A stretch of 35,872 bases of DNA, taken from the NCBI GenBank assembly GCA_016181265.1, contig JACOZP010000003.1, positions 1-35,872 on the forward strand. Reading direction: 5' to 3'. Source of the DNA: Candidatus Woesearchaeota archaeon (GTDB taxonomy: Archaea; Nanobdellota; Nanobdellia; Woesearchaeales; GW2011-AR9). The notes below the pieces were generated by a model. It was not told where the DNA came from and searched no databases. It saw only the letters and a program-made list of their open reading frames with translations. Made by a program: the position numbers and the translations under genes. This document shows, one piece after another, positions 10,756 to 28,910 of the stretch; positions within the stretch are counted from its first letter, which is position 1; the number at the start of each line of letters is the position of its first letter.

Positions 10756-11889
10756 CTATCTTCTTGGTCTTATCATTTTCTCCATCTTTCTCTCTAATGA
10801 AGCGTATTTATCTCTAATTTGTTCATCAACGCCAAAAATATAAGCTATTGTTCCCGCCCGTGTCCACATGCCATTACGCTGTGCTCGCCAGAGCATGATG
10901 CGTTTATCATCAATATAATCGAGACGTGGATCAATCTCTTCACGTTTTGGCATTGGGTGCATTAAGATTGACGTTTCCGGCATCATCCGCAGATGGTCTT
11001 CTGTAAAAACTAAATCAGTGGGATATTTCTCTGATTGAGAACCAGTTCCATATTCATCCTGAAGACGCGTCATATAATTCACATCAACAAATGAAGGCAA
11101 TTCGCCGATGCCTGTTGTAATCTTGTGAACTGTTACTCCCCGTTGTGCGATATAATCTTCTGTTTCTGCATCAATCTGTAGGTGTTCAGGTGCCACAAAA
11201 TAGACCGTCACTCCTTTGTGTAATGCTAAGAGCCGCGCCCCTGAGTGGATGACTCTACTGCGGAGACAATCCCCATAGAACGCAATTGTCTTCCCATCAA
11301 TTGAACCAAGAGATTCTTCTATCGTATAATGATCCAAAATTCCCTGCGTGGGATGTTCTTTCGTTCCAGAACCAGCATTAAATATATGAAGTGGTCTCCT
11401 GGAGTTCTGCATTGCCCATACTGTAAAATGTCCATAAAGATCGCTCGGGTGACGTACAACCATTCCTTCGTAGAACGAGGATTGCGTGCGCAGTGCATCG
11501 AGATCGGATTCTCCTTTAGCAGTGGATGATGTCTTGAGATCCCGCACTTCTTCTCGTTGAATCCCTAACTTTGATTCTGCTCGAGAGAATGATAAAAATG
11601 TTCGTGTACTTGGTTGCGGAAAATAATTTAAGACAGAAGTATGACGTAAAAGTCCTTTCAGAAACTCCGGCTCTATCTTGGAAATTCTTCGAGCGGCATT
11701 TGTCGTGTCGTGAATTGTCTTCAAGAGAGCGAGATCAAGATGTTCGGCACTTACCACATGCTTTAATCTCCCACCTTCATCTCGGCATGCTCTGGCAAAT
11801 TCTTCCGAGCCACCTGCTAGAAATTCTTCAAACCGTGAGCGGTGGTAACCCGCGAGTGTTACATCTGCTCCCCAATAAATCTTATCCAT
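10756..11889 (-). CDS. pyrB: Aspartate carbamoyltransferase-like protein
   Basis: This is a 377-residue member of the aspartate/ornithine carbamoyltransferase family, which makes carbamoyl-aspartate in pyrimidine synthesis. It has the carbamoyl-phosphate motif QPSTRTFLSF at about 90-99, a TAKGES loop, HPTQ at about 179, GDCLRSRVIHS in the second domain, and HPMPKREEI at about 309. It is about 65 residues longer than the usual catalytic chain, mainly from an N-terminal extension. The last motif has Lys where the Arg of HPLPR binds aspartate in the E. coli enzyme. No regulatory pyrI gene is adjacent. A perfect ribosome binding site GAGGTGAT (11895-11902) precedes the ATG. A carbamoyltransferase with different substrate choice remains possible. 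Confidence 0.8.
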   Translation of the reverse strand: MDKIYWGADVTLAGYHRSRFEEFLAGGSEEFARACRDEGGRLKHVVSAEHLDLALLKTIHDTTNAARRISKIEPEFLKGLLRHTSVLNYFPQPSTRTFLSFSRAESKLGIQREEVRDLKTSSTAKGESDLDALRTQSSFYEGMVVRHPSDLYGHFTVWAMQNSRRPLHIFNAGSGTKEHPTQGILDHYTIEESLGSIDGKTIAFYGDCLRSRVIHSGARLLALHKGVTVYFVAPEHLQIDAETEDYIAQRGVTVHKITTGIGELPSFVDVNYMTRLQDEYGTGSQSEKYPTDLVFTEDHLRMMPETSILMHPMPKREEIDPRLDYIDDKRIMLWRAQRNGMWTRAGTIAYIFGVDEQIRDKYASLERKMEKMIRPRR

Positions 11890-11894
11890 AAGAA

Positions 11895-11902
11895 ATCACC
11901 TC
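11895..11902 (-). promoter_or_regulatory. Strong ribosome binding site of the carbamoyltransferase gene
   Basis: GAGGTGAT matches the 3' end of archaeal 16S rRNA over eight bases and lies 5 nt from the ATG. This is one of the few first genes here with a clear leader. Confidence 0.7.
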
Positions 11903-11948
11903 AGAAATGAATAGTCGAATCATCAAAAATACTAAGCCCTATCTTACA

Positions 11949-11957
11949 CTTTAAATA
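11949..11957 (-). promoter_or_regulatory. TATA box of the carbamoyltransferase gene
   Basis: TATTTAAAG on the minus strand lies about 64 nt from the ATG. This predicts a leader of about 40 nt that includes the strong ribosome binding site. Confidence 0.45.
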
Positions 11958-11974
11958 CTTTTCCCCACCCGAAA

Positions 11975-11984
11975 ATATATAAAG
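11975..11984 (+). promoter_or_regulatory. TATA box of argS
   Basis: ATATATAAAG is centred about 26 nt before the ATG at 12006, so argS is probably leaderless. Confidence 0.6.
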
Positions 11985-12005
11985 AAACTTCGATTCTCTC
12001 AGGGA

Positions 12006-13703
12006 ATGGATTTTCGTGAAAAGATAATCAATTTGCTCGCTACAGAGGCCAAACTTCCTCGTACCGATATCGAGCGGATGCTGTCTGTTCCTCCCGACCA
12101 GAAACTCGGTGATTATGCTTTTCCCTGTTTTAAGTTAGGCGGGAATCCACGTGACGCTGCTCTCCAGCTCCAGAAGAAAATAAAACTTCCTGCCTTCCTC
12201 TCGCGGATTGAAATTGCTGGTCCTTATCTTAACTTTTATCTCAACAAATCGTTCTTCGCTAAAGAGACACTTACTCATATCAAAAAACTAAAACACAACT
12301 ATGGCAAAGGCAATAGCAAACAAAATATCGTCTTAGAGTACTGCGGTCCAAATACTAACAAACCGTTACATCTGGGTCACATTCGTAATATGGCTCTCGG
12401 CAACGCCGCTTTTCATCTTCTCCAATTTCAAGGCAACAAAGTTCATCCTGTTAATATTGTTAACGATCGTGGCATCCATATCTGCCAGTCGATGCTTGCT
12501 TATCAGAAATGGGGCAAGAAGAAGCAGCCCGACAAGAAAGGTGATCATTTTGTTGGAGACTATTACGTCATGTTCGCGCAGGCTGTAAAGAAAGAAGCAG
12601 AACAGAAAAAGGAAGAACTTCCTAAAGAAGCACAAGAGATGCTTTTAAAGTGGGAATTAAATGACAAGACAGTCCGTACGCTCTGGAAAAAGATGAATGG
12701 CTGGGTCTTAAAAGGCTTTGCGCAAACGTACAAACGATTTGGTATTGCCTTTGAAAAAGAATATTTCGAATCGAACTATTACCAGCATGGGAAAGACTTG
12801 GTCTATGAGGGCATGCGTAAAGGCGTCTTTGAAAAAGATCACACCGAAGCCATCACTGCTCCCTTAGAAAAGTATCATCTGCCCAACAAAGTCCTTCTCC
12901 GTGGAAATGAAACTTCTCTTTACATCACTCAGGATCTTTACTTAGCCCAACTACGCTATGATGATTACCAATTTGATAAGTTAATCTACGTCGTCGCGTC
13001 TGAACAGCAGTTGCATTTCAAGCAGCTCTTTGCTGTACTCGACCTCCTGAACAAGCCATACGCTAAGAATATGTATCACCTTAGCTATGGTATGGTCCAT
13101 CTACCTACCGGAAGGATGAAATCGCGTGAAGGCACGGTCATCGACGCCGATGATATCATGGATGAGGTTTCTGCGTTAGCAGAAAAAGAAGTCCGTTCTC
13201 GTTATAAGAATCTCTCTGAAAAAGAAATCAAACGCCGCGCCGAAGCGATCATGCTTGCTGCCATCAAGTTTTTCATGATCAAGACCGATGCGGTTCGCGA
13301 TATCATCTTCAATCCCGAAGAATCACTCAGCTTTGAAGGTGAGACCGGGCCGTACATCCAATACACCCACGCCCGTGCTTGTTCTGTCCTCCACAAAGCA
13401 GGAAAAAGAACGGTAAAGATCGATTACACCCAATTGCAACAACCTTCCGAATCAAGTCTCATCAGTCTTCTGTCCCAACTCCCCTCTTTCGTTGAAGACG
13501 CAGCCGTACATTATCGTCCCCATGTTATCTGTCGTTATCTTTTGGATCTTTCGCAGGCTTTTAACGAATTTTATCATGCCTGCCAGATCATTTCCGAAGA
13601 CAAAAAAAAGATGGCGGCACGTTGTGCTCTCGTCGATGCCACGCGCCAAGTTCTTGCTAATGGATTATCCATTCTCGGTATTGAAGCATTAGAAGAGATG
13701 TGA
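12006..13703 (+). CDS. argS: Arginyl-tRNA synthetase
   Basis: This 565-residue class I aminoacyl-tRNA synthetase charges tRNA-Arg. An N-terminal additional domain covers about residues 1-100. The HIGH-type signature is NKPLHLGHIRNMALGN near residue 120. The KMSKS-type loop is GRMKSREG near 370, a common variant in ArgRS. The C-terminal all-helical DALR anticodon-binding domain contains FEGETGPYIQYTHARA and ends with the family-typical LGIEALEEM. Length and motifs are complete. The 3' end overlaps the convergent GNAT gene by 47 nt. Confidence 0.95.
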   Translation: MDFREKIINLLATEAKLPRTDIERMLSVPPDQKLGDYAFPCFKLGGNPRDAALQLQKKIKLPAFLSRIEIAGPYLNFYLNKSFFAKETLTHIKKLKHNYGKGNSKQNIVLEYCGPNTNKPLHLGHIRNMALGNAAFHLLQFQGNKVHPVNIVNDRGIHICQSMLAYQKWGKKKQPDKKGDHFVGDYYVMFAQAVKKEAEQKKEELPKEAQEMLLKWELNDKTVRTLWKKMNGWVLKGFAQTYKRFGIAFEKEYFESNYYQHGKDLVYEGMRKGVFEKDHTEAITAPLEKYHLPNKVLLRGNETSLYITQDLYLAQLRYDDYQFDKLIYVVASEQQLHFKQLFAVLDLLNKPYAKNMYHLSYGMVHLPTGRMKSREGTVIDADDIMDEVSALAEKEVRSRYKNLSEKEIKRRAEAIMLAAIKFFMIKTDAVRDIIFNPEESLSFEGETGPYIQYTHARACSVLHKAGKRTVKIDYTQLQQPSESSLISLLSQLPSFVEDAAVHYRPHVICRYLLDLSQAFNEFYHACQIISEDKKKMAARCALVDATRQVLANGLSILGIEALEEM

Positions 13704-16786: not shown

Positions 16787-17302
16787 ATGGTAAAATTACG
16801 CAAGTTTGCAGCATACCAGAATCTGGAAAGACCATACACTCGTATTAGTAAATATACTAAGAAAAACTTTGTTCGTGGTGGGTTTCCCGCGCTTAAAATC
16901 ATCAAATTTGATATGGGTACTCCACAGAAACAATATAATACCCTCCTCGTTCTTAATTCTCTCGAAGCGATGAATATCCGTCAGAATGCGCTTGAATCAG
17001 CTCGGATGACCTCTAACCGCTTGTTAGAAAAAACATTAGGTAAAGAATATCATCTTCGCGTTAAAGTCTATCCTTTTCATGTTCTCCGTGAAAATGCCCT
17101 TGCTTCCGGTGCAGGTGCAGACCGTCTGAGTACAGGTATGAAATTAGCGTATGGGAAGCCTGTTGGTTCAGCCGCTCGCGTCCGGGAAGGCCAGACCCTT
17201 ATCGAATTACGCTTGGATAAAGCTAACCTTAAAGTTGGTCGTGAAGCCTTATCCCGTGCTGGAAAGAAATTCCCTTGCTCTTGTAAAATTGTCCTGCAAT
17301 AA
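16787..17302 (+). CDS. rpl10e: Large-subunit ribosomal protein L10e (uL16)
   Basis: This is 171 residues, the usual archaeal length. It starts MVKLRKFAAYQNLERPYTR, close to the conserved archaeal L10e N-terminus. It keeps the central RVKVYPFHVLRENA region and the internal loop GADRLSTGMKLAYGKPVGSAARV, which reaches towards the peptidyl-transferase centre and A-site tRNA. A strong TATA box lies 27 nt upstream. The last 54 nt overlap the convergent peptidase-like gene. Confidence 0.95.
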   Translation: MVKLRKFAAYQNLERPYTRISKYTKKNFVRGGFPALKIIKFDMGTPQKQYNTLLVLNSLEAMNIRQNALESARMTSNRLLEKTLGKEYHLRVKVYPFHVLRENALASGAGADRLSTGMKLAYGKPVGSAARVREGQTLIELRLDKANLKVGREALSRAGKKFPCSCKIVLQ

Positions 17303-17734
17303 GATTTCTTTTAATCTTTTAATGTCTTCTCTCTTAACATGTGTAAATGCAAACGGTATTGTCAATTTCTCTCGTTCTAAGAACGACTTGATTCTGTACA
17401 TTGTATAATTGCAAAAAGTAGATGATGGCTTTCTGGAAACTCTAAACGTTGTACTTTGCAAATCTGGTACATTCAATAACAATTCTTCTTCCCCTTCTTT
17501 TATCACGATTCCCGTTCTGTTAAATCTATTGACTGCTTTCGGTTCGAAAAGAGAATGTCCAGAATGTGTTGACGCCACACCGATGATCATTGTCGGTTTC
17601 TGTTCGAAAATTAATTTCGAGAAGCGTTGCACGTCTTCCTTCAATTTCCCGAAAATAAACAGACTATCGACCTCTTTTCTTAACTCCTCTGGATATGGAA
17701 ACGTCCGGAAAGTATACGCTAAAATAATCGCCAT
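17249..17734 (-). CDS. Small pyroglutamyl-peptidase (C15)-like protein
   Basis: This is 161 residues, shorter than the roughly 200-215 of pyroglutamyl peptidase I. The expected triad is recognisable: Glu64 in SLFEPKAVN (ITVERVAIN-like), Cys108 in STFCNYTMY, and His132 in FAFTHVK. The Cys-to-His gap of 24 residues equals that of the known enzymes. It lies 15 nt downstream of the giant-protein gene with GAGAGG seven bases before its ATG, so it is the last gene of that operon. C15 enzymes remove N-terminal pyroglutamate; whether this short form does so is unknown. Its 3' end overlaps the L10e gene by 54 nt on the other strand. Confidence 0.65.
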   Translation of the reverse strand: MAIILAYTFRTFPYPEELRKEVDSLFIFGKLKEDVQRFSKLIFEQKPTMIIGVASTHSGHSLFEPKAVNRFNRTGIVIKEGEEELLLNVPDLQSTTFRVSRKPSSTFCNYTMYRIKSFLEREKLTIPFAFTHVKREDIKRLKEILLQDNFTRAREFLSSTG

Positions 17735-17749
17735 TTCTCATTCCTCTCA

Positions 17750-20680
17750 TTAATTCATTTCTCTCTTGAATCTCTCTAATTCCTCTTCTATTTCTCTTAA
17801 TTCCTCTGATCGTATTCCCTTTCGTCGTTCCTTTTTTCTTCCTCCCTCGTCTCTGTAAAGAACAGCTCTCTCTTTATTTCCTACCATCTCTTGTTTCTTT
17901 TCTGTAAAGAAGCGCTTCAAGAAAGGTCTCGTTTTTTTCTGTCCAGAGTCCAGTTTTTCACTAATCTCAACGAATTCCCTTTGGCGTTTATCTTGTCGTT
18001 CCATTTCCCAATGCTCTCGTGGTCTGCGTGGTGGAATTGTTTCTCGAATATGTACTTGCGATCCATCAAGATGAAATGCGGATTCGACTTGTGCTAGTCT
18101 TCGATTAATTTTTTCTAACTCAGGAGTCGGCTTCACATATAATCCTCTCTCTTCCCCTCTTTCTCTTTGCCGTTGTAAGAAATTCCAATCTCTTTGTTTT
18201 CTGATCTCTGGTGAAGGCAGCATCGTTCGTACATGTATCTTCTCTTTAGTTGGTTCTTTCTCCACAACACCCAACTCTTTTTCGATTTTTGTCAGTTCTT
18301 TCTGTTGTCTGAAAGAAAGTTTGGTCTTAGGTTCCTTGAAAGGTCTTCTCTGACGTAACATCTCTTCCATCGCCATCTCCGAACCGAAGATGCTGACACT
18401 TGGCACACTAGTCACAACTTTCCCTTTTCTATTACGTGCCATAATCTCTTCAACTTTCTCTAGACTACGATCTATCTCATGCAATTCCGTAAAGATCTTT
18501 TTCTCCCTTCTTATTTCAGCATGATCTTTTGGTTGTCGTACTCTTTTTGCTAGCCACGCCTCTCGTTCTCTCTTTTCGATAACGTCCATCTCCTCACGGG
18601 AAGTCTTTGCCGCAATATCGGCTAGCGAAGGGATCGTCGTCCTCATTTTTATTCCGGGCCCCGTACTTCCTCCTTCTTCCAGCAAACGCGCTAATTTCTG
18701 TTGAACATGTTCTAGTTCACGGCTGGGTTTTGCTGCCGGACGCTGTTTCTGTTGCTCCTGTTTTTTCCCTGATCCTTGTTCTTCTCTATCTCTCCCGCGT
18801 TCCTGCTCTTTCCTCTGCGTATTCTCCGGTCTATATAACCACTGCCAAATCCTTGTCGACATCCTTTTTCTTCTCTTCAGAGGCAGATTATCTTCGAGAG
18901 GGTGTTGATGAATACTCGTCTTCATCTTCACGATCTTTGTCGGTGTTTTCTCTACAGAATCAATTGCTTGTTGGATCTCTTCTAACTCTTTTTTCCGTTC
19001 CTCCTTCCTCTTCTGTGACGATCCTTTTGCATATCTCCCCTCGATCTTTCCGAGGATACCTCTGATCGCCATTCTTTCATCTGCAAGGCGTTTATCTTCT
19101 CCTTTCAAAGATCTTGCCAGCTCTTGGTCAGTAGGGATGAGCTTGCGTATCTTCACTCTTGTTGCTGCGATCTTGTCCAACATCGCCAATTGCTGTTCAA
19201 CATCATGAAGTTCAGCAGTATCCCGCGGTTGTTGACGTTCCATCCCTTCTCGTTTTCTCTTTGGACGTGGAAAGATACTATCCATCCCTGAGGGCGCTAT
19301 TTTTGTGGGAATTGTCGTCTTCACATTCATCTGTTTTGTCGGGACGATTTCCCTTTCTGTCAACGCACGCTCTATATCCTCCAGCTCTTTGGTCCTCTTT
19401 CTCTCTTGAAGTAAAGCAGCGGGTTTATTCCGTTTGCCGGCAATCTTCCCGAGGATATTCTCGATTGCTGCTTTCTCCTCCAGTAGATTCTTTTCTTCAA
19501 CGATCACTTTTGTTAATTCGGTGGCAGAAGGCACAGTTGTCCTCATTTTTATTTTCTCTTTGGCTTCTTTCATCCTATCCAAAGCAGCTAATTGTTGCTC
19601 CACAGCCATTAACTCATTGCTTGGTCGGGGTTGTCTTCCTTCCAGCCGACGCGCAATCTTCAAGACATCTTTCATTGCTGTTCTCGCCGCCTTTGTCTCC
19701 CTTTTTCCTTCTCTGGAAAAGAGCTGTGCTAGCAATGATGTCGGTCTTTTCTCTGCGCGTGCTAGGGCGCCCGTTACTCTCTCTAGTTCTCGATCGATCG
19801 CTTTCTTTCGTTCACCAATCTGTGTTAATGGAGAATCCGCGGGGATCTGTGTCTTCATCTTACCATGTTTCATCAATACACTTTCTACCCCTTCAATTTC
19901 TCTTTCAATTTCCTCCAATTCTTTCGTCTTCTTGGTCTCACGTTCTAGAATTGCTTCTTTTCCTCTCATCGGCGCTTTTAAGAGGGTCTCTACCATCGCT
20001 TTCTCTTCTCGTAACCGCGCATTCTCATAAGCAACTTGTTTTGTGATCTCCTGCATCGAAGGAATCGTTGTTCTAACGTTCAACTTCTGCCCTTTCTCAC
20101 TCATCTTCTGCAGAGTAGCTAGCCGTTGTTCCACATCAACCAATTCATTGCTTGGTCTCTGCTGTCTTCCTTCCAGTCTACGCGTGATTCTCAGGACATC
20201 TCTCATTGCTAATCGGGCTGCCCGGGTCTCTCTTCTTCGCTCTCTGGAGAAGAGCTGTGCCAGCAATGATGTTGGTCTCTTCTCTGCACGGGCCAAAACA
20301 CCAGTTACTCTCCCTAATTCTTTGTCGATGATCACTTTTCGTTCGTGAAGCATATCTTTCGAAGCTGTTGCCATGGAAGGAATTGTCGTCTTCATCTTAC
20401 CATGTTTCATCAATACGCTTTCTACCCCATTAATCTCATTTTCAATGTCCTCCAATTCTTTCGTCCTTTTGATCTCCCGTTTTACGCCCGGCGCTGCCGC
20501 CTCTTCGCGTTGTAGCTTTTCAGCAACTGTCTGCAATTCTTTCTCCATCACTCTTTTTCTCTCATCAAAAGCATTACGTACAGAAAGAGGAGGAAGATGC
20601 CATCTAACCTTGACTTTTTCCGTCGCCATGTCCTCTACTTTGCTGATAGATTTTTCTACCGCCCGCAGTTCATCATCAAA
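17750..20680 (-). repeat. Twelve-copy helix plus TTIPS motif array in the cytoplasmic tail
   Basis: Each unit has the form ELxxIExxLxxVE, a short spacer, then K-M/V-K/R-T-T-I-P-S. In order, the motif cores are VRWHLPP, MKTTIPS, VRTTIPS, MKTQIPA, MRTTVPS, VKTTIPT, IRKLIPT, MKTSIHQ, MRTTIPS, VVTSVPS, VRTMLPS and IRETIPP. Two half-units with only the helix end the protein (EFVEISEKL and EELREIEEEL). Confidence 0.85.
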
Positions 20681-23600
20681 TAAAGTATATCTCTCTGGTA
20701 AAGGGATGACCGTCGGCTTTGGCGGGGTTATAACTCTTTCTTCCTGGCTCATTGTCAGCTTCTCTATTCTTCCTTTCTGTTTCAGAAGAAGACTGACTTC
20801 TTCCTCTTCTAGCGTAGATAGGCGGCGGTCGATTCTCGATAACTCTCTCTCCAAGAACGTAGAGCGTATCCCTCTTGGGATATATCGTGCAATCGTTCTT
20901 GGAAAAACTCCTTTCATGGGGCGGTGTGGCAAAGCACTCAGCGTTATTTTTCGGAGATAGGCAACTCCTACCATCAAGAAAAAGAGAAGGATGAGCAGTA
21001 ATGCGCCATCGACAATGTAAGAACTATACTGCTGTGCTTGGTTGGTGAATCCCGCAAAGATAGCCCTCCCCGTCGCCGTGAAACCTGTGAACAAAGAAGG
21101 CTCAAGACCATCTCTCACCGTTCCTGTGCTGAAATCAACAGTATAATCATTTTCCGCGATAAGAATTCCTTCCTCGTAGATCTTCAGACTGACGGGAAGA
21201 GTGCTTTGATACACGGTATTATCATAGGCCAGTTCCTGCGCGAAAATCTGATCCTTTGCAATTTCATATGGTCCGAAGAATTCCGAATAGCGTGAGCTGG
21301 AAAAGAAAAGAGATTGCCCCTCATTGATATCTAATTCCAGAAGATACTTCTTTCCTGACACCTCTTCCGTCTCGTCTCCTTTCGGGATCAGAACATATAC
21401 ATCAATGATCCCTTGCTCGGGATCTATGGTCAGCGCCGTTCCTACCCTTACCGCATCGGTCACAGTTACTTCTTTTGTGAGGAGATCTTCTCCTCCTGTT
21501 GTCAATGACAGTTTTATCGGCTTGGGGGTCAATGTAATCGGCAGGCGGATATCATAATCTTTCGTTACAGTCTGTCCCGGTTCTACAATTGTCTCATTTG
21601 GATTTAGAATTTCAGTCTTCAACAACCGACCCGTCGTATGCCCTCCCGAATACGAGACTGAACCGTCTGCAGTCGGTAAGAAGAAGACTCCTCTTTGCGA
21701 TGGCAACGCTTTTGTCGTTGAAATGAATTGAACTTTCTCCTCTTCTACACGCTTGATCGTCTCAATCGTATTGGCAACTTTCTGCTGCACTCTGTCCTCT
21801 TCAACTAATTGTAGAGAAAGCTGCTGTTCATCCTGTCGTTGATGTTCTAAGAGCACGTCGATCTTTGCTTCTGTCTCAGCAAGCGTCTTACTCTCCAGGA
21901 GATCGCGTAAAGATTCCTGTTCCTCCGCATCTCGTTTTTCTGGAAGCTCTAATTCTTGTTGTATGATCGTTCTCACTTCTTCGATGCTCTCTGCATCGCG
22001 CACTTGCGCTTGAAGATTCTCTGCTCGTGCAATCACCTTTGCCACTTCCTGCTGCTCCCTCCTCATCTCCTCAACTTCTTCAGCGGGTCGCTGTACGATT
22101 TGCGGAAGTGCTGCCCGTATCCTTTCTTCTACGATCTGTTCCGCTCTCTGTTGATTGGGCAGTTGGATGGTGCTTCTCTCTCTGATTGCTGGCACGATGC
22201 TTACCGCTACATCTGCCGTATTAGAAAAGGTCACGCTTACCCGTCGTACATTTACTAAGGACCGTCGTTCTACCGGCCGAGTAAGAGGAGTTCCGATTGC
22301 TCTTCCTGTCAATGCCGAATCAAGAGGAGTGAGTTGCTGCCGTTCTGGTTCCGTAAGAGTCAGGGCTGGACGGACAGTGATTGCAAAACGTTGTTCACTC
22401 AGTAGTTGTCTTGCCTCGCTGGGTGTAGCAACTCCTCGTGTCGTCCGCGGTGCACTTGGTGCAGCCGGTCCTTCTTCCCCTGTCTCTTCTGCTGGTGCGG
22501 CTCCACTTCCACCACCTCCTCCGCCCCCGCTACTTTCTCCCGTGGAAGCGGCAGCGGTGACCGTATAACTCCCCGTTGCATTAGCATTAATTCCCACATT
22601 ATCCGTAACCGTGCATGTTCCGGTTGTGAACGTTCCCGCTGTCGTTGTACTCGGTGACGTATCGCTGAACGACACAGTATTCACGCCGCTGCTCTGATCA
22701 TCTTCACCAGCACAGCTGCAGCTAACTGCGCTCCCCACCGTCACCGAAGAAGGCGAACACGTCACTGTTGCATTCGGTGCGGTCTGATCGACGAAAAATG
22801 TTCGCGAGACAGAATTGTTCATGTTGCCCACTGTGTCGTTAGCGAAAATAGTAATCGTTCTGTTCCCTTCTGCCACGCCGCTGCCGATGGTGATGCTAAA
22901 GTTATAGAGTGTACTATTTGTTGAGGAGGCTGTAACATTTACCAGACCGTTTGTTCCATTTTCAATTTGGAAGCGGACAACATCAATGATTCCCGCATCG
23001 GAGATACTAGCATTAAAAACTATAGTCTCTCCAGTTGTAAAATTCTGTCTGCTGGCAGGCGTGTTAAACCCTTGGACATTTGGGGCTGTGTCTTCTGTCA
23101 GAACAAGGTTAATTTGCGTGCTATGCGTTGATGAAATATTCACCGTTGTCGAGCTTTGGATATAATTTGTAAGAGTTGCATTAACTGTATGCGGCGTGAA
23201 GTAGTTAAAAATTAATGATGCTCCCGCTGTAGAACTACCATTTAGAGAATAATCTGTGAGATTAAACCGGGCTAGGCCGCTCGCCTCTGTCAAAAGAGTT
23301 TGTTCTATTCTCCCTGAAGAATTGTAGGCCGTAACGTTTGCACCACTTAATGGCGTTCCATTCGCTGCTGTGACGTTGACCAAGACATACCACTGAAACC
23401 AGAGTAATCCCCGATGATCAGTACCAAAACTGACATTAGTATTGTTAAACACGTTGTTGATAAAAAAAAGGGTCCCGGCAGAGTTTGTCAAGCGTACTTT
23501 TAGCGCCTGTGCTTTTGTCGTTATAAACGTATTATTGATAAAATAGGATCCTCCTGCCCCGTCTGTTGTCCAATCTACTGCTTGAGCACTAGAAGTCGTT

Positions 23601-26326
23601 CCATTAACATAAATAATGTTCCGGCTGAAAGTATGATTATGTCCAGAACTTGAACCAAAAGAAATGCCCACCCCCTGGCTCCCAGTAATATTCATAAAAT
23701 TATCCTCAAATGTAACATTTAATGGGCTAGAGCTCCCGAGAAAGCCATCTGCAAATTCTGTGAATGTCGTAAAGGTATTCCCGCGATAGGCGTTGTCATC
23801 ACTGCTGCCAGTACTATATCTAATTCCCTCACTCCCCCCGTAGACAAAAAACGTGTTGTTGGTGTAATTATTTCTCCTTCCATTTAAAACCCCGGCCCCA
23901 TCACCTCGATAAGTAACGATAGAGTTATTTGTAATCTCATTAAATCCCAAAAATATTGATCCAAAACCGATTACCCCGATTATTCCTGCTCCCGTTCCCG
24001 TTAACATTAACCGGTTCCCCTCGATAACATTATTAATTGCATTCGTGAGGAGTATTGCTTCTTCATCCGTTGCATTAACGGTATTATTTCGAAGGAGTGA
24101 TCCATTCGTTCGCACCAGATCAATCCCTTCATTTGAAGAATTTAAAACAGCGTTTTGAATGATACTCAGATTAAATGAGTTTACTGCCCTAATCCCGTCA
24201 TCAGAAGAGATATTGGCAGTAATATTAAAAACCGTGCTGTTGGATGATTTCGTTAAAAAAACTGCAGTGGTAAAATTATATAACACCATATTTTCAATCG
24301 TGACGTTATTAAAAGAAGTAACATTAACTCCAAAACCGCCGGTTCTGTTCCCCGTGACCATATATCCTTTCCCATCAACAATAATGTCACTGGCGTTCAC
24401 CACAAAACAACTTCCCCCGGTATTAATGTTATTCGTTAGATTGATATTGCCATTAATGTAACCACAATTTACAGTATCATTCACCGCCAGAACCAGATTT
24501 ATTTGAACACTTTGCGTTGCCGAAAGATTAACTGTTGTCGAATTGGGTAGATATCCCGCCGCGCTGACGTTAATAACGTGTGGTGTATGAAGAAATAAAT
24601 CGGCTGTTCTGTTCTCTTTCTTTTCAGTAAGGTTAAACTTAATGACGCCGCGATCATCTGTAAGAAATGATTGTTCCATTTCTCGTGTGAGATTAAATGC
24701 GGAGACATTAGCATCAGAAATCGGTGTTCCATTTGGCGCAGTGATATTCACTACCGCCCACCATTGATATTGGACATAATTACGGTGGAACGGGTTGGTG
24801 TCATAGCTGACATTGCTTAAATTATAAGTATTATTGATAAGTGTAAGAGAACTTAGAGAGCTGAGACCAATATTAATCTGGGCTCCTTTCAGCGGGTTGA
24901 TGAACGTATTATTGATGATAACTGCGGAAGCCGTAGAACTACTTGAGAAATCTAAAGGAAAGGCACCCACATTGGTATTGTTAATAATGACGATGTTTCC
25001 GACAATTAGATGATTAGTTCCTGCGTTCGTCGTAAACGATATCCCGCTCGACAAACTTCCCGTCATGTTAATAAAGTTCTCTTGGATAATAAGATCTGAC
25101 CCCGTTGCAGACCAACCAATACCTGAAGAACGTTGCGTGGAACCGAGCATCGTATTTCCTAGAATAAGATTGGCATTACCTATAGTTATTGCGTCTGTAT
25201 TTGTGCTAACGGGATTGACATAGAACGTATTGTTGGTAATATTATTGTTTAATCCATTTTCGATCCCAGCTGTGCCATGATAAATATTAAATGTATTATT
25301 GGCGATCGATAACTGCCGCCCATTGGTTCCCGCATCGATTATCGATATCCCACTCAAGCTTGCCGGACCTGAAGCAATAGTAAAGTTATTTCGTGTGATA
25401 TTCGTGAAAAAAGAATTTGAAGATGTGAATAGCATCAAGTTATCATCTCCATAAATAGTATTATTATCAAATAAAGAATAGTTCACGGAAGTGATCGTCA
25501 TCATTTCATTCGTTGCGTTAAAGATTGTATTCTGAGAAAAGTTCAATCGAAAGACATTCCGCAACTCTACCAAGCTGTCTGAACTATTATTTGCCGTATT
25601 GTTAAAGATCGTGCTGTTTTGTGAACGATGCATAAACAGCGCGATGGAGAAGTTATGAAGATTAAGATTTTTAATAGTGACATTGCTAAACCCCGTCACA
25701 TTGACACCATATACCAAACTTGCTTGGGATCCTTCTACCGTAAATCCATTCCCATCAATGACTACATTACTAGTGTTCACGACAAAGCACGTTGTCGGTG
25801 TATCTAAATTTTGCGCTAAGACGACATCCCCGTTAACATAGCCACATGAAGTTGAATTTGCATCTCCTTCTAGTCCGATTCCTCCTTCTGCAAGAAAAAT
25901 CTCTCCCTCAGCACTGAGCGGGGTGCTATACTCCTCAGAACTATTAACCTCATTGCTGCTATTGCTACCATTGGCAGTAGCAGGAGGAGCAATCTCTAGG
26001 ATTGGTGCTCTCTCCTTCCCTTTCGAACTGTCGAGGTCGTCACTACTATTGCTACTGCCACTACTGTTAGTATCGGGAGTTTCAATCCCTGGAATTAGAA
26101 TCAGGGTTCTATTTTCTCCTTCGGAACTATTTCCTGTTGAATTAACATCTTCTCCTATCCCGATCACTGCTCCGGTGGCCGCTTGCGATCCAAGAGTAAT
26201 AGAATTTCCTTTAAGTGAGAAGAGAACTAATAAGGCTATAGATATAAAGAAAAAGAATAGTCCGATCTTTACTTCTCTCTTCAATCCTCTCCGCTTTGTG
26301 TTCGCCTCTTTTTTTCTCATGGTCAT
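17750..26326 (-). CDS. Giant two-TM surface protein with duplicated beta-helix ectodomain and repeat-rich cytoplasmic tail
   Basis: This is 2858 residues. A basic N-terminus precedes membrane segment 1 (about 19-40). Residues 41-1770 are predicted outside. They start with a Ser/Asn/acidic linker, then two 460-residue modules beginning at Cys161 and Cys621. Each has a CGY-x-NG start, Asn-rich right-handed beta-helix (NosD/PbH1-like) rungs and a carboxypeptidase-regulatory-like domain. Ig-like domains (about 1080-1255), a poly-Gly linker near 1264-1272, a coiled coil (about 1390-1530) and a beta-rich domain follow. Membrane segment 2 is 1772-1791. The cytoplasmic remainder (about 1070 residues) is charged and helical, with 12 repeats ending in a TTIPS-like motif. 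Dozens of N-x-S/T sequons suggest heavy glycosylation. The ATGA overlap couples it to the upstream regulator. Function is unknown; a surface receptor or adhesin with an internal scaffold is a guess. Confidence 0.85.
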   Translation of the reverse strand: MTMRKKEANTKRRGLKREVKIGLFFFFISIALLVLFSLKGNSITLGSQAATGAVIGIGEDVNSTGNSSEGENRTLILIPGIETPDTNSSGSSNSSDDLDSSKGKERAPILEIAPPATANGSNSSNEVNSSEEYSTPLSAEGEIFLAEGGIGLEGDANSTSCGYVNGDVVLAQNLDTPTTCFVVNTSNVVIDGNGFTVEGSQASLVYGVNVTGFSNVTIKNLNLHNFSIALFMHRSQNSTIFNNTANNSSDSLVELRNVFRLNFSQNTIFNATNEMMTITSVNYSLFDNNTIYGDDNLMLFTSSNSFFTNITRNNFTIASGPASLSGISIIDAGTNGRQLSIANNTFNIYHGTAGIENGLNNNITNNTFYVNPVSTNTDAITIGNANLILGNTMLGSTQRSSGIGWSATGSDLIIQENFINMTGSLSSGISFTTNAGTNHLIVGNIVIINNTNVGAFPLDFSSSSTASAVIINNTFINPLKGAQINIGLSSLSSLTLINNTYNLSNVSYDTNPFHRNYVQYQWWAVVNITAPNGTPISDANVSAFNLTREMEQSFLTDDRGVIKFNLTEKKENRTADLFLHTPHVINVSAAGYLPNSTTVNLSATQSVQINLVLAVNDTVNCGYINGNINLTNNINTGGSCFVVNASDIIVDGKGYMVTGNRTGGFGVNVTSFNNVTIENMVLYNFTTAVFLTKSSNSTVFNITANISSDDGIRAVNSFNLSIIQNAVLNSSNEGIDLVRTNGSLLRNNTVNATDEEAILLTNAINNVIEGNRLMLTGTGAGIIGVIGFGSIFLGFNEITNNSIVTYRGDGAGVLNGRRNNYTNNTFFVYGGSEGIRYSTGSSDDNAYRGNTFTTFTEFADGFLGSSSPLNVTFEDNFMNITGSQGVGISFGSSSGHNHTFSRNIIYVNGTTSSAQAVDWTTDGAGGSYFINNTFITTKAQALKVRLTNSAGTLFFINNVFNNTNVSFGTDHRGLLWFQWYVLVNVTAANGTPLSGANVTAYNSSGRIEQTLLTEASGLARFNLTDYSLNGSSTAGASLIFNYFTPHTVNATLTNYIQSSTTVNISSTHSTQINLVLTEDTAPNVQGFNTPASRQNFTTGETIVFNASISDAGIIDVVRFQIENGTNGLVNVTASSTNSTLYNFSITIGSGVAEGNRTITIFANDTVGNMNNSVSRTFFVDQTAPNATVTCSPSSVTVGSAVSCSCAGEDDQSSGVNTVSFSDTSPSTTTAGTFTTGTCTVTDNVGINANATGSYTVTAAASTGESSGGGGGGGSGAAPAEETGEEGPAAPSAPRTTRGVATPSEARQLLSEQRFAITVRPALTLTEPERQQLTPLDSALTGRAIGTPLTRPVERRSLVNVRRVSVTFSNTADVAVSIVPAIRERSTIQLPNQQRAEQIVEERIRAALPQIVQRPAEEVEEMRREQQEVAKVIARAENLQAQVRDAESIEEVRTIIQQELELPEKRDAEEQESLRDLLESKTLAETEAKIDVLLEHQRQDEQQLSLQLVEEDRVQQKVANTIETIKRVEEEKVQFISTTKALPSQRGVFFLPTADGSVSYSGGHTTGRLLKTEILNPNETIVEPGQTVTKDYDIRLPITLTPKPIKLSLTTGGEDLLTKEVTVTDAVRVGTALTIDPEQGIIDVYVLIPKGDETEEVSGKKYLLELDINEGQSLFFSSSRYSEFFGPYEIAKDQIFAQELAYDNTVYQSTLPVSLKIYEEGILIAENDYTVDFSTGTVRDGLEPSLFTGFTATGRAIFAGFTNQAQQYSSYIVDGALLLILLFFLMVGVAYLRKITLSALPHRPMKGVFPRTIARYIPRGIRSTFLERELSRIDRRLSTLEEEEVSLLLKQKGRIEKLTMSQEERVITPPKPTVIPLPERYTLFDDELRAVEKSISKVEDMATEKVKVRWHLPPLSVRNAFDERKRVMEKELQTVAEKLQREEAAAPGVKREIKRTKELEDIENEINGVESVLMKHGKMKTTIPSMATASKDMLHERKVIIDKELGRVTGVLARAEKRPTSLLAQLFSRERRRETRAARLAMRDVLRITRRLEGRQQRPSNELVDVEQRLATLQKMSEKGQKLNVRTTIPSMQEITKQVAYENARLREEKAMVETLLKAPMRGKEAILERETKKTKELEEIEREIEGVESVLMKHGKMKTQIPADSPLTQIGERKKAIDRELERVTGALARAEKRPTSLLAQLFSREGKRETKAARTAMKDVLKIARRLEGRQPRPSNELMAVEQQLAALDRMKEAKEKIKMRTTVPSATELTKVIVEEKNLLEEKAAIENILGKIAGKRNKPAALLQERKRTKELEDIERALTEREIVPTKQMNVKTTIPTKIAPSGMDSIFPRPKRKREGMERQQPRDTAELHDVEQQLAMLDKIAATRVKIRKLIPTDQELARSLKGEDKRLADERMAIRGILGKIEGRYAKGSSQKRKEERKKELEEIQQAIDSVEKTPTKIVKMKTSIHQHPLEDNLPLKRRKRMSTRIWQWLYRPENTQRKEQERGRDREEQGSGKKQEQQKQRPAAKPSRELEHVQQKLARLLEEGGSTGPGIKMRTTIPSLADIAAKTSREEMDVIEKREREAWLAKRVRQPKDHAEIRREKKIFTELHEIDRSLEKVEEIMARNRKGKVVTSVPSVSIFGSEMAMEEMLRQRRPFKEPKTKLSFRQQKELTKIEKELGVVEKEPTKEKIHVRTMLPSPEIRKQRDWNFLQRQRERGEERGLYVKPTPELEKINRRLAQVESAFHLDGSQVHIRETIPPRRPREHWEMERQDKRQREFVEISEKLDSGQKKTRPFLKRFFTEKKQEMVGNKERAVLYRDEGGRKKERRKGIRSEELREIEEELERFKREMN
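19397..20470 (-). repeat. Tandem 179-residue duplication in the giant protein
   Basis: Copies cover about residues 1953-2131 and 2132-2310. Shared stretches include GVESVLMKHGKMKT, LARAEKRPTSLLAQLFSRE and RRLEGRQ-x-RPSNEL. The DNA is also visibly similar over these parts, so the duplication is fairly recent. Confidence 0.85.
23087..25846 (-). repeat. Two 460-residue ectodomain modules
   Basis: Module 1 is residues 161-620 and module 2 is about 621-1080. Both begin CGY[VI]NG, contain CFVVN and NVTI, and end with a VVNIT/VLVNVT-type domain closing in STTVN-[LI]-S and QINLVL. They are diverged, so this is an older duplication than the one in the tail. Confidence 0.8.
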
Positions 26327-26883
26327 AATTCTCGTAAGACGAGATCATAATTTGCCAATAATTGTTTTAACGGCTCAATCGCTAGAGAGTAATACTTATG
26401 CGGGGCCTCTTTCCGAACATGCAAAAATCCCAGATCGTGTGCCAGCTTCAGATGGCGTGAAGCCAATGACAATGAAATCTTATTAACCATCGCTAAATCT
26501 GTTACGGTCATTTCTTCTTCCGCCAGCAGACGAAGAGCTGTTCTTCGTTGCGCGGCGTTGAGAATACGCGCTAAGTTCTCTTCCCCTTTCTGGCTGATCT
26601 TAAACAATTTGTGGCGATGGACAGCATCATAATCCTGCAGCAGATCGGCCAGTTTTTGTGAACGTACAGAATAATGTTTATGGGGCGCTTCCTTCCGCAT
26701 AACGACCAATCCCGTATCTGCCAGAAACGTGAGGTGACGCGATGTTAAAGAAACCGATGAATGTACTGCCTCAGCAATCCGTGTCACCGTTAATTCTCGA
26801 TTGATGAGAAGCCGCAGAATCGTTCTTCGTGATTGTGCGCTAAGTGCGCGCGCTAATCGCTCCTCTTTTTCTCCTATCACCAT
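26323..26883 (-). CDS. Transcription regulator with two tandem ArsR-like winged-helix domains
   Basis: This is 186 residues made of two copies of a winged helix-turn-helix. In domain 1 (about 1-90) the recognition region is SVSLTSRHLTFLADTGLV and the wing is MRKEAPHKHYSV. In domain 2 (about 95-186) they are KISLSLASRHLKLAHDLGFL and VRKEAPHKYYSL. The near-identical wings show internal duplication. One chain may therefore act as a built-in dimer. No metal-binding Cys pair typical of ArsR sensors is visible. Its TGA overlaps the ATG of the giant-protein gene (ATGA), so the two are translated together. A TATA box 28 nt upstream and dyads in the divergent spacer suggest self-regulation and control of the phosphodiesterase gene. 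Confidence 0.85.
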   Translation of the reverse strand: MVIGEKEERLARALSAQSRRTILRLLINRELTVTRIAEAVHSSVSLTSRHLTFLADTGLVVMRKEAPHKHYSVRSQKLADLLQDYDAVHRHKLFKISQKGEENLARILNAAQRRTALRLLAEEEMTVTDLAMVNKISLSLASRHLKLAHDLGFLHVRKEAPHKYYSLAIEPLKQLLANYDLVLREL

Positions 26884-27020: not shown

Positions 27021-27944
27021 GTGGAACGTCGCCCCTTCTTAGAAACAGTCGTATCCGGATCTCTCGGCTTGCTGGTTGCTCATTGTTCTTTCCCTTTCTT
27101 AAGAGATGATCACCCTTTTCCGTATTCCTCTGGAAACAAACAGAAAGTTCTTCTTCTAGGCATTGATGGTGTCCGTCCAGACGCACTTTCTGTTGCTCGT
27201 ACTCCTCACCTAGATAACCTCATTGCCCATGGTTGTTATAGTGATGCAGCTCAAGCAGGTGAACATACCGTTAGCGCTCCCGGCTGGTCAAATATCTTCT
27301 GCGGTGTTTGGGAACGAAAGCATGGTGTGACCAACAATACTTTTTCGGGGAGTAAATACGACCAGTACCCTTCCTTGTTTACCCGGCTGGAGCAGCTGCA
27401 TCCCGAATTATATACCGTTTCGCTCGTTTCCTGGCGGCCGATTAATGACCACATCATACCTGCTGCCGATTTTCGTCTTTCATATTCTAATGATCGAGAT
27501 GGCGATCGGCAAGTTACCGAGCAAACAATTCAAGTTCTCTCTCGCGAAGATCCAGACGTCATGTTTGTCTATTTTGGGAATGTAGATATGGTCGGCCACA
27601 AATACGGCTTTCATCCTTCTGTAGCTCCCTATGTTCGAGAGATTGAGTCGGTCGATCGTCAGATCGGCTTGGTTCTGAGAACATTACAGCATCGTCGACA
27701 GTACGCCTCAGAAAACTGGTTGATCCTTTGTACAACAGATCATGGTGGAACAAAATCCGGCCATGGTCAAAATATTCCTGAGCATCGTACGGGTTTTTAT
27801 ATCGTCTCCGGGTCTTCAGCACAGTCTGGCCGTCTTACCGGACAGCCTCAGCAAGTCGATGTTGTTCCAACAATACTCACTCATTTAAAGATACCTCTCG
27901 ATCCGGCGTGGGGATTGGATGGAAAAGTGTGTGGACTACGATAA
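27021..27944 (+). CDS. Tat-exported alkaline-phosphatase-superfamily phosphodiesterase
   Basis: This is 307 residues from a GTG start placed 27 nt after a TATA box. The N-terminus ERRPFLETVVSGSLGLLVAH is a twin-arginine signal (Arg3-Arg4). The mature domain has type I phosphodiesterase/nucleotide pyrophosphatase motifs: metal ligand Asp49 in LLLGIDGVRPDAL, probable nucleophile Ser85 in VSAPGWSNIFCG (Thr is common in relatives), GNVDMVGHKYG, and TTDHGGTKSGHG. It likely hydrolyses phosphodiester or phosphate ester bonds outside the cell; the substrate is unknown. It diverges from the regulator/giant-protein operon across a dyad-rich spacer, suggesting shared control. The stop overlaps the convergent GTPase gene by 9 nt. 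Confidence 0.85.
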   Translation: MERRPFLETVVSGSLGLLVAHCSFPFLRDDHPFPYSSGNKQKVLLLGIDGVRPDALSVARTPHLDNLIAHGCYSDAAQAGEHTVSAPGWSNIFCGVWERKHGVTNNTFSGSKYDQYPSLFTRLEQLHPELYTVSLVSWRPINDHIIPAADFRLSYSNDRDGDRQVTEQTIQVLSREDPDVMFVYFGNVDMVGHKYGFHPSVAPYVREIESVDRQIGLVLRTLQHRRQYASENWLILCTTDHGGTKSGHGQNIPEHRTGFYIVSGSSAQSGRLTGQPQQVDVVPTILTHLKIPLDPAWGLDGKVCGLR

Positions 27945-28910
27945 AACTTCCGGCTGATCTGCTTCCCTCTTTAGAAATTCTTCTTTAATCTTCTCTTTCA
28001 ATTCATCTACAGAATAATATTTGTGCTTGAACTCTTCTAGGATTTCCGGGGGTGTCAGATCTAACTTTGTGACACAGACAAATACATTTTTCTCCCTACC
28101 TAAATTGTTGTACAACTGTTCTTGTTTCTTGACAGAATAGCCACTATATCCGCTGAGATCGAAGACAAACACGACCATGTTTGCTAATTCTTTCATGACT
28201 AGATCTGCTTGTCGTTCTATAATATTCATCCTTTCGCCGCGTGCCAACGTTCCCGGAACATCCAGAATCTGTACCTTCTTGTCTCCAACTTTCAAATAAC
28301 CAGCATTGATTGTCTTAGTCGTGAACGCATACGCTGCTGTTTCTGCTTTTGTACCTGTTAATCTATTCAGCAGCGTTGATTTTCCCACATTAGGGAAGCC
28401 GTAAAGACAGACCGTAAACATTTCTTTGATATCAGGATATGTTCGGAAGATCTTACGTGCTTCTTCTAGAAACGCAAGGTTTCCTTTGATCTGTTTGATC
28501 ACCGATGCGATTCTCCCATAGAATTGACGCGATAATTCACTGATCTTCCCTCTATCTGTCGTCTTGAAAATCCTCCTAACATATTCTCCTTGGAAAAAAC
28601 GGACTTTGTCGGCGGCCCACCCCAGGGATGCCAATGATTTTTTATACTCATCAAAATCAACCGTCAACTTCATCAGCTTGATATAAAATTCAGGTAATTT
28701 TTTGGGGTGAGTAAACGATCCGTGAATTTTTTCTAGCCGGCTCACCAGCGTGTCTTTAACAATGTCAATCTTCAAACTTTCCTTCTTTCGGATAATTTCC
28801 AGCCAATTTCCTTTCAGGTTCTTTTCGATCCCTTTCTCGCGCGCTTTGCGGAAGGCCAGATCTAGTAATGCTTTCTCCGATTCGACAGAAGCAATACTTT
28901 GGAAGTTCAT
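27936..28910 (-). CDS. NOG1-like GTPase
   Basis: This is 324 residues. An N-terminal helical domain (about 1-165) precedes a GTPase domain with G1 GFPNVGKST at about 172, a switch-I Thr in FTTKTIN, G3 DVPG, and G4 TKLD. This is the layout of archaeal NOG1/Obg-related GTPases, which act in large ribosomal subunit assembly. The protein ends soon after the G domain, as in short archaeal forms that lack the eukaryotic extension. A TATA box CTTTAATAAAAC lies about 26 nt upstream of the ATG. The 3' end overlaps the phosphodiesterase gene by 9 nt. Confidence 0.9.
   Translation of the reverse strand: MNFQSIASVESEKALLDLAFRKAREKGIEKNLKGNWLEIIRKKESLKIDIVKDTLVSRLEKIHGSFTHPKKLPEFYIKLMKLTVDFDEYKKSLASLGWAADKVRFFQGEYVRRIFKTTDRGKISELSRQFYGRIASVIKQIKGNLAFLEEARKIFRTYPDIKEMFTVCLYGFPNVGKSTLLNRLTGTKAETAAYAFTTKTINAGYLKVGDKKVQILDVPGTLARGERMNIIERQADLVMKELANMVVFVFDLSGYSGYSVKKQEQLYNNLGREKNVFVCVTKLDLTPPEILEEFKHKYYSVDELKEKIKEEFLKREADQPEVLS

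Follow-up and report, generated by a model that had tools for sequence, protein, structure and literature searches.

A giant woesearchaeal surface protein with a repetitive, predicted cytoplasmic tail belonging to a family-specific locus

The SPEARE-type giant surface proteins of Nanohaloarchaeota consist of a signal or transmembrane (TM) segment, a very long Ig-like ectodomain, a TM segment, and a cytosolic part, which is a VirB4/TraG-like ATPase domain (PMC10266531). The archaeal adhesin-like proteins (ALPs) of Methanobrevibacter and Methanosphaera have ectodomains of beta-helix and repeat type, anchored by TM segments at the N-terminal end, the C-terminal end, or both (PMC11532034).

DPANN archaea are thought to be attached to other cells, and the link from their giant proteins to the cell interior is the gap addressed here. 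The window, which is the whole 35,872-nucleotide stretch of contig JACOZP010000003.1 (assembly GCA_016181265.1), comes from a Candidatus Woesearchaeota archaeon with a genome of 1.0 Mb in 23 contigs. It encodes a giant membrane protein, P0001, with the following parts.

17750..26326, minus strand: giant membrane protein P0001, 2858 aa (uninterrupted open frame; ortholog in a sister species, 46% identical in juxtamembrane domain and tail)
26204..26272, minus strand: N-terminal TM segment or signal anchor, residues 19-41, preceded by Lys/Arg (hydropathy)
21029..26203, minus strand: ectodomain, residues 42-1766 (Pfam matches and sequon count)
21107..21889, minus strand: membrane-proximal ectodomain, residues 1480-1740 (relatives search)
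20957..21025, minus strand: second TM helix, residues 1768-1790 (hydropathy)
17753..20956, minus strand: predicted cytoplasmic tail, 1068 aa, with neither sequon nor Cys (composition and sequon count)

Two TM segments were identified by hydropathy, at about residues 19-41 and 1768-1790, and they bracket the ectodomain. The Pfam scan showed that the ectodomain contains NosD, Beta_helix, and Big_7 domains above the gathering scores; a carboxypeptidase-regulatory-like match was also found there. Residues 1480-1740 are common to many other woesearchaeal surface proteins. The ectodomain has 86 N-x-S/T sequons and 8 Cys, versus none of either in the tail, and the tail contains 248 K/R versus 181 D/E (net charge +67). 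These differences in sequons, Cys, and charge support a cytoplasmic location of the tail. The topology proposed in the initial annotation, a giant ectodomain followed by a TM helix and a cytoplasmic tail, is borne out by the two TM segments and the sequon counts.

The same annotation had described the tail as twelve copies of an amphipathic helix plus a TTIPS-like motif. This repeat is real, with 12 units that all lie within 17750-20680 and start at the residues given below.

20777..20845, minus strand: first tail helix, residues 1828-1850, without TTIPS (alignment with the first helix of short-form tails)
20696..20719, minus strand: KPTVIPLP segment, 1870-1877 (aligns with a family-wide KPxVIExP segment)
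20588..20671, minus strand: unit 1, 1886-1913 (unit search)
20375..20458, minus strand: unit 2, type A, 1957-1984 (unit search, pairwise scores)
20057..20146, minus strand: unit 3, type B, 2061-2090 (unit search, pairwise scores)
19838..19921, minus strand: unit 4, type A, 2136-2163 (unit search, pairwise scores)
19526..19615, minus strand: unit 5, type B, 2238-2267 (unit search, pairwise scores)
19304..19387, minus strand: unit 6, type A, 2314-2341 (unit search, pairwise scores)
19130..19213, minus strand: unit 7, type B, 2372-2399 (unit search, pairwise scores)
18905..18988, minus strand: unit 8, type A, 2447-2474, H for Pro (unit search, pairwise scores)
18626..18718, minus strand: unit 9, type B, 2537-2567 (unit search, pairwise scores)
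18398..18487, minus strand: unit 10, 2614-2643 (unit search)
18212..18298, minus strand: unit 11, 2677-2705 (unit search)
18029..18121, minus strand: unit 12, 2736-2766 (unit search)
17753..17803, minus strand: C-terminal helix EELREIEEELERFKREMN, 2842-2858 (sequence)

A loose regular expression (helix plus [IVL]P) matched the tail 11 times; 2000 shuffles averaged 0.009 matches and never gave more than 1. The unit profile, built from 26 rows that include these P0001 units themselves, gave exactly 12 matches in the genome, every one in P0001 (E 3.5e-20 to 1.4e-10). Each unit has an EL..IE..L..V helix and then a [VMI][KR]xx[IVL]P segment. Only a few units carry TTIPS in its strict form, and what stays constant is [VMI]-[KR]-x-x-[IVL]-P, with the Pro replaced by H in the unit at 2447. 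The helices at 1828 and at the C-terminus (2842-2858) are two more that lack the motif.

The linkers had been said to vary greatly. Their lengths do differ, with unit spacings of 71, 104, 75, 102, 76, 58, 75, 90, 77, 63, and 59 residues, but they are not random. Along the early array the spacings alternate (104/75/102/76), and pairwise scores are 60-204 among the units at 1957, 2136, 2314, and 2447 and 48-143 among those at 2061, 2238, 2372, and 2537. These two observations show that A-type and B-type units alternate, and that a super-repeat of two units, about 178 aa long, was duplicated. The A+B blocks 1957-2135 (179 aa) and 2136-2313 (178 aa) are near copies, and the pattern decays toward the C-terminus. 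Each block begins with helix 1 and a basic extended Ile-Pro link; the long helix 2 comes next, then a stretch that is both hydrophobic and basic (RPTSLLAQLFSRE is one example), and helix 3 leads to the next helix 1. The tail appears to have been expanded by tandem duplication in the window's genus.

AlphaFold2 models of the second super-unit (12-row alignment) and of a short-form tail (8-row alignment) had pTM values of 0.22 and 0.28, respectively; with alignments this shallow, a low pTM is no proof that a fold is absent. Both models contain confident single helices, joined at the Ile-Pro segments by irregular links with pLDDT of about 55. This agrees with the earlier suggestion of a design that repeats but does not fold compactly. 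A known coiled-coil or structural domain was considered and rejected: there was no Pfam match beyond chance, no NCBIfam match, and no PDB sequence match in the tail, and Foldseek with the low-confidence tail model returned no fold match. In the open literature searched, nothing relevant was found on giant proteins of woesearchaea that have long cytoplasmic tails. The repeat tail and its locus were not found in Pfam, NCBIfam, the PDB, or that literature.

An ortholog of 2115-2123 aa (genome G002) was found in a sister species, Candidatus Woesearchaeota RIFCSPLOWO2_01_FULL_44_20 (JAGVZN010000009.1), the NOG1 of which is 90% identical. Over the full length of the juxtamembrane domain and tail it aligns with P0001 at 46% identity, and almost nothing is common between the N-terminal ectodomains. 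Within the window's genus, the outside of the protein differs and the inside is kept. The tails average 45% identity, against 90% for NOG1 in the same species pair, and with such fast evolution some of the tail may be spacer under weak constraint. Almost every unit has a one-to-one counterpart in the ortholog, in the same order. The helix E and L are identical in 11 of the 12 units, the two hydrophobic link positions are aliphatic in 12/12 and 11/12, and 10 of the 12 units retain the Pro. For the T, T, and S of TTIPS, identity drops to 5, 4, and 3 of the 12 units, at or below the tail average of 45%. The motif had been called conserved, and loss of TTIPS in orthologues had been named as grounds for refutation; the ortholog shows this in part, as the claim holds for the aliphatic-Pro and the EL helix, but not for the TTIPS letters. 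Judged from these alignments, the positions under selection are the helix heptads, one basic residue, and the aliphatic-Pro. TTIPS looks like a basic extended link ahead of the next helix.

The unit profile also picked up small proteins elsewhere in this woesearchaeal family, in other genera. Short relatives (326-367 aa) combine two TM helices with a tail of about 220-280 aa; others, of 537 and 876 aa, have no predicted TM segment. In these genomes the conserved order is CPA2 antiporter, NOG1-family GTPase, tail gene, and convergent L10e. The two landmarks of the window are as follows.

27936..28910, minus strand: NOG1-family GTPase, upstream landmark (Pfam, synteny)
16787..17302, plus strand: ribosomal protein L10e (L16p/L10e), convergent downstream landmark (Pfam, synteny)

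NOG1 was found in 45 genomes of the family (single copy, split matches aside), and the adjoining genes were read in each. The tail gene lies between NOG1 and convergent L10e in the window and in most of these genomes. The giant ectodomain form occurs in 21 of the 45, several of these genes ending at a contig edge with the tail on another contig or unseen. The short TM+tail form occurs in 10, and a probable TM-less tail in 6, of which three score below 1e-3 (G014, G025, G032) and three are weak (G016, 0.019; G018, 0.53; G017, no score). One genome (G008) has a relocated tail protein. The site is cut by a contig end in two (G001, G004). At the NOG1 site, five genomes lack a tail gene (G020, G023, G024, G027, G068), so the tail is not indispensable. 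The relocated giant protein (L157:853-5343, G008:C1) has the tail end EELEKIEEELRILQEK and lies near a ribosomal protein L11-like gene. The TM-less tail proteins at L047, L086, and L102 share an ELQxKW-like element, which is unseen in the giant tail.

The short-form profile, trained on five short-form tails only, matched the P0001 tail with E=5.8e-28, the G002 tail with 4e-37, and most other locus tails below 1e-3; the best of several hundred background ORFs scored 0.03, and shuffles 0.27. With this profile match (E=6e-28), the tails of the giant and short forms are homologous. Most tails of the family have a pI above 9, lengths range from about 120 to about 1070 aa, and an EL..I...L helix terminates most of them, as EELREIEEELERFKREMN does in P0001. 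The core profile found the locus protein and little else in the family genomes. The genome search found no second tail copy in the source genome, and a public genome scan with the raw P0001 tail gave no match. Among 242 genomes of the order searched for the tail outside the family, there was a single chance-like match. This 86-aa match in G242 (E=5e-6) has an internal stop codon, no TM segment, and no synteny, and was rejected as a tail homolog.

Phylogenetic distribution also bears on how the locus arose. NOG1 adjoins L10e without a tail gene in genomes outside the family. Since this adjacency is older than the tail, the tail gene was most likely inserted once between older neighbours, and synteny therefore marks descent more than function. 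A functional coupling to NOG1 argued from synteny alone is weakened accordingly. The idea of the giant ectodomain as the defining part of the protein is weakened, since relatives drop it, and probably the TM segment as well, and keep the tail. The tail, not the ectodomain, is the part that evolution has kept at this locus. On sequence, topology, homology, and locus, the P0001 tail is an expanded form of a family-specific cytoplasmic module.

Several neighbours of the window may be mentioned. A 161-aa ORF without a family match (17249-17734) lies between the tail gene and L10e and overlaps the L10e 3' end on the opposite strand. Between NOG1 and the operon of the giant gene, a phosphodiesterase/sulfatase-like gene (27021-27944) runs on the opposite strand, and a shorter related ORF is found at the same place in G002. 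The window also encodes a Peptidase C13 (legumain-like) protein whose N-terminus carries a hydrophobic segment (199-1065) and a protein with MopE-type metal-binding motifs (1087-2535).

The giant gene shares its operon with a regulator-like gene.

26323..26883, minus strand: tandem ArsR-type winged-HTH protein, 186 aa (Pfam/NCBIfam; 4-bp stop/start overlap with the giant gene)

A small HTH gene lies upstream of the giant form in all 21 genomes, versus none of the 16 short forms (TM+tail plus TM-less). The HTH is of the ArsR type in 19 of the 21 and another tandem HTH in G061 and G062. ArsR alone is associated with the giant form (Fisher p=1e-8, with genomes counted as independent and phylogeny ignored). 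In the window and at loci L095-L124 and L149, the ArsR-type regulator was seen in two versions: the window's genus has a fusion of two winged-HTH domains (186 aa), nearly all other genera a single domain of 90-92 aa, with the 4-bp overlap with the giant gene being usual. A different small HTH gene precedes other giant surface-protein genes (L031:2570-3061 and 11567-12061; also L125 and L123); by eye, these proteins are tandem sigma-70-region-4-like. These observations suggest that one HTH gene per giant gene is a general pairing in these archaea.

What the tail does is best approached from its modular construction. The A/B super-repeat, the retention of the tail after ectodomain loss, and the separate helices favour a helical docking strip at the cytoplasmic face, multivalent and under weak sequence constraint, to which we give slightly less than an even chance. 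The initial annotation had also proposed a multivalent scaffold, and a multivalent strip is still the most economical reading of the modular tail. The module consists of short basic amphipathic helices (EL..I...L..L) and extended basic links that end in aliphatic-Pro. The helices would not pack into one domain but would form a strip along the inner membrane face, in which every EL helix touches a common cytoplasmic partner or surface through a single weak contact. The TTIPS segment would serve as link and N-cap, orienting the next helix and setting the register. Tandem duplication of the two-helix-unit module (about 178 aa) would lengthen the strip and raise its avidity. The ectodomain is a putative swappable adhesive or contact part, and the dedicated HTH protein encoded beside it in the operon probably regulates how much of the costly giant form is made. 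Candidate partners include a cortex, a homotypic network, and the 50S/NOG1. A broader and rather doubtful possibility is a lineage-specific family of cytoplasmic adaptors, in which a basic string of EL helices connects interchangeable ectodomains to the cortex or the ribosome/50S, with the number of units tuned by duplication and a free cytoplasmic form also occurring.

Other explanations for the tail were considered. The helices might pair with those of neighbouring molecules as coiled coils, giving a spectrin-like submembrane network (a homotypic cortex) that clusters the giant proteins. The heptad-like L2-I5-L9-V12 spacing in every unit, the long helix 2 in every A/B module, and the different helix numbers of relatives, as a network would predict, are consistent with this. 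The units are however short (about 18 residues) and Pro-broken, the helices are net positive rather than balanced knobs, and short forms with only 3-5 helices exist, which makes such a network unlikely. Tethering of the ribosome would place a basic tail on rRNA, the large subunit, or NOG1, keeping ribosome assembly or translation near the membrane. The helices with their extended basic segments resemble many rRNA-binding extensions, the tail is highly basic, its gene lies between NOG1 and L10e in most family genomes, and the short forms overlap NOG1 by 4 bp or follow after tens of bases. However, the NOG1-L10e pair predates the tail gene, the position of which can thus be a single ancestral insertion; moreover, in the window an opposite-strand gene parts NOG1 from the tail operon, and the G008 tail is located elsewhere. 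We consider this tether improbable.

A largely neutral expansion appears improbable to the same degree. Here a charged, low-complexity helical tail would tolerate duplication, and only the terminal helix and the juxtamembrane part would be functional. Fast divergence (45% identity), decay of the A/B pattern toward the C-terminus, and the wide range of tail lengths (about 120 to about 1070 aa) would fit. On the other side, two species whose tails are 45% identical still have nearly all units in one-to-one correspondence and in the same order, the heptad and Ile-Pro positions are kept well above average, and the tail was independently retained after ectodomain loss. Docking regulated by phosphorylation of the T-T and S of TTIPS, the proposal of the initial annotation, is highly improbable: the acceptors are flanked by basic residues and Pro, but they are identical in just 5, 4, and 3 of the 12 ortholog units and missing from most family members, and their poor retention beside a kept aliphatic-Pro disfavours it.

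The locus, single-copy and conserved across a woesearchaeal family, with the inner tail conserved and the outer part exchanged or lost, provides a defined, testable candidate for an inside-out linker in these DPANN cells. The short, apparently TM-less, and expanded forms are natural experiments that could separate the roles of ectodomain, membrane anchor, and repeat number.

In comparison with known systems, the tail bears a superficial likeness to the ESCRT MIM1/MIM2 motifs in combining an amphipathic helix with a Pro-containing extended segment. Docking of the MIM1/MIM2-MIT type was rejected: MIT was over the cut-off in 0 of 49 family genomes (the Sulfolobus control was positive), and Snf7 was not found above the cut-off in the family genomes. 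Spectrin-like and coiled-coil scaffolds also have repeated amphipathic helices at the inner membrane face; however, the P0001 units are short, interrupted by Pro, and not packed together in the model, with no PDB sequence or fold match. The ALPs and P0001 both have a beta-helix ectodomain with TM anchors, P0001 being also Ig-like (Big_7). The ALPs belong to a different lineage, and the portion of the report used here (PMC11532034) describes no long cytoplasmic repeat tail, whereas P0001 has one. The SPEARE proteins and P0001, likened here by description, are both DPANN giants with a long ectodomain, a TM segment, and a sizeable cytosolic part. No VirB4/TraG-like ATPase was detected when all of P0001 was scanned against Pfam and NCBIfam; inside the membrane, SPEARE has an ATPase, whereas P0001 has an enzyme-less repeat of basic helices without a Pfam match. 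P0001 is of the giant-surface-protein kind, and it carries an undescribed tail family.
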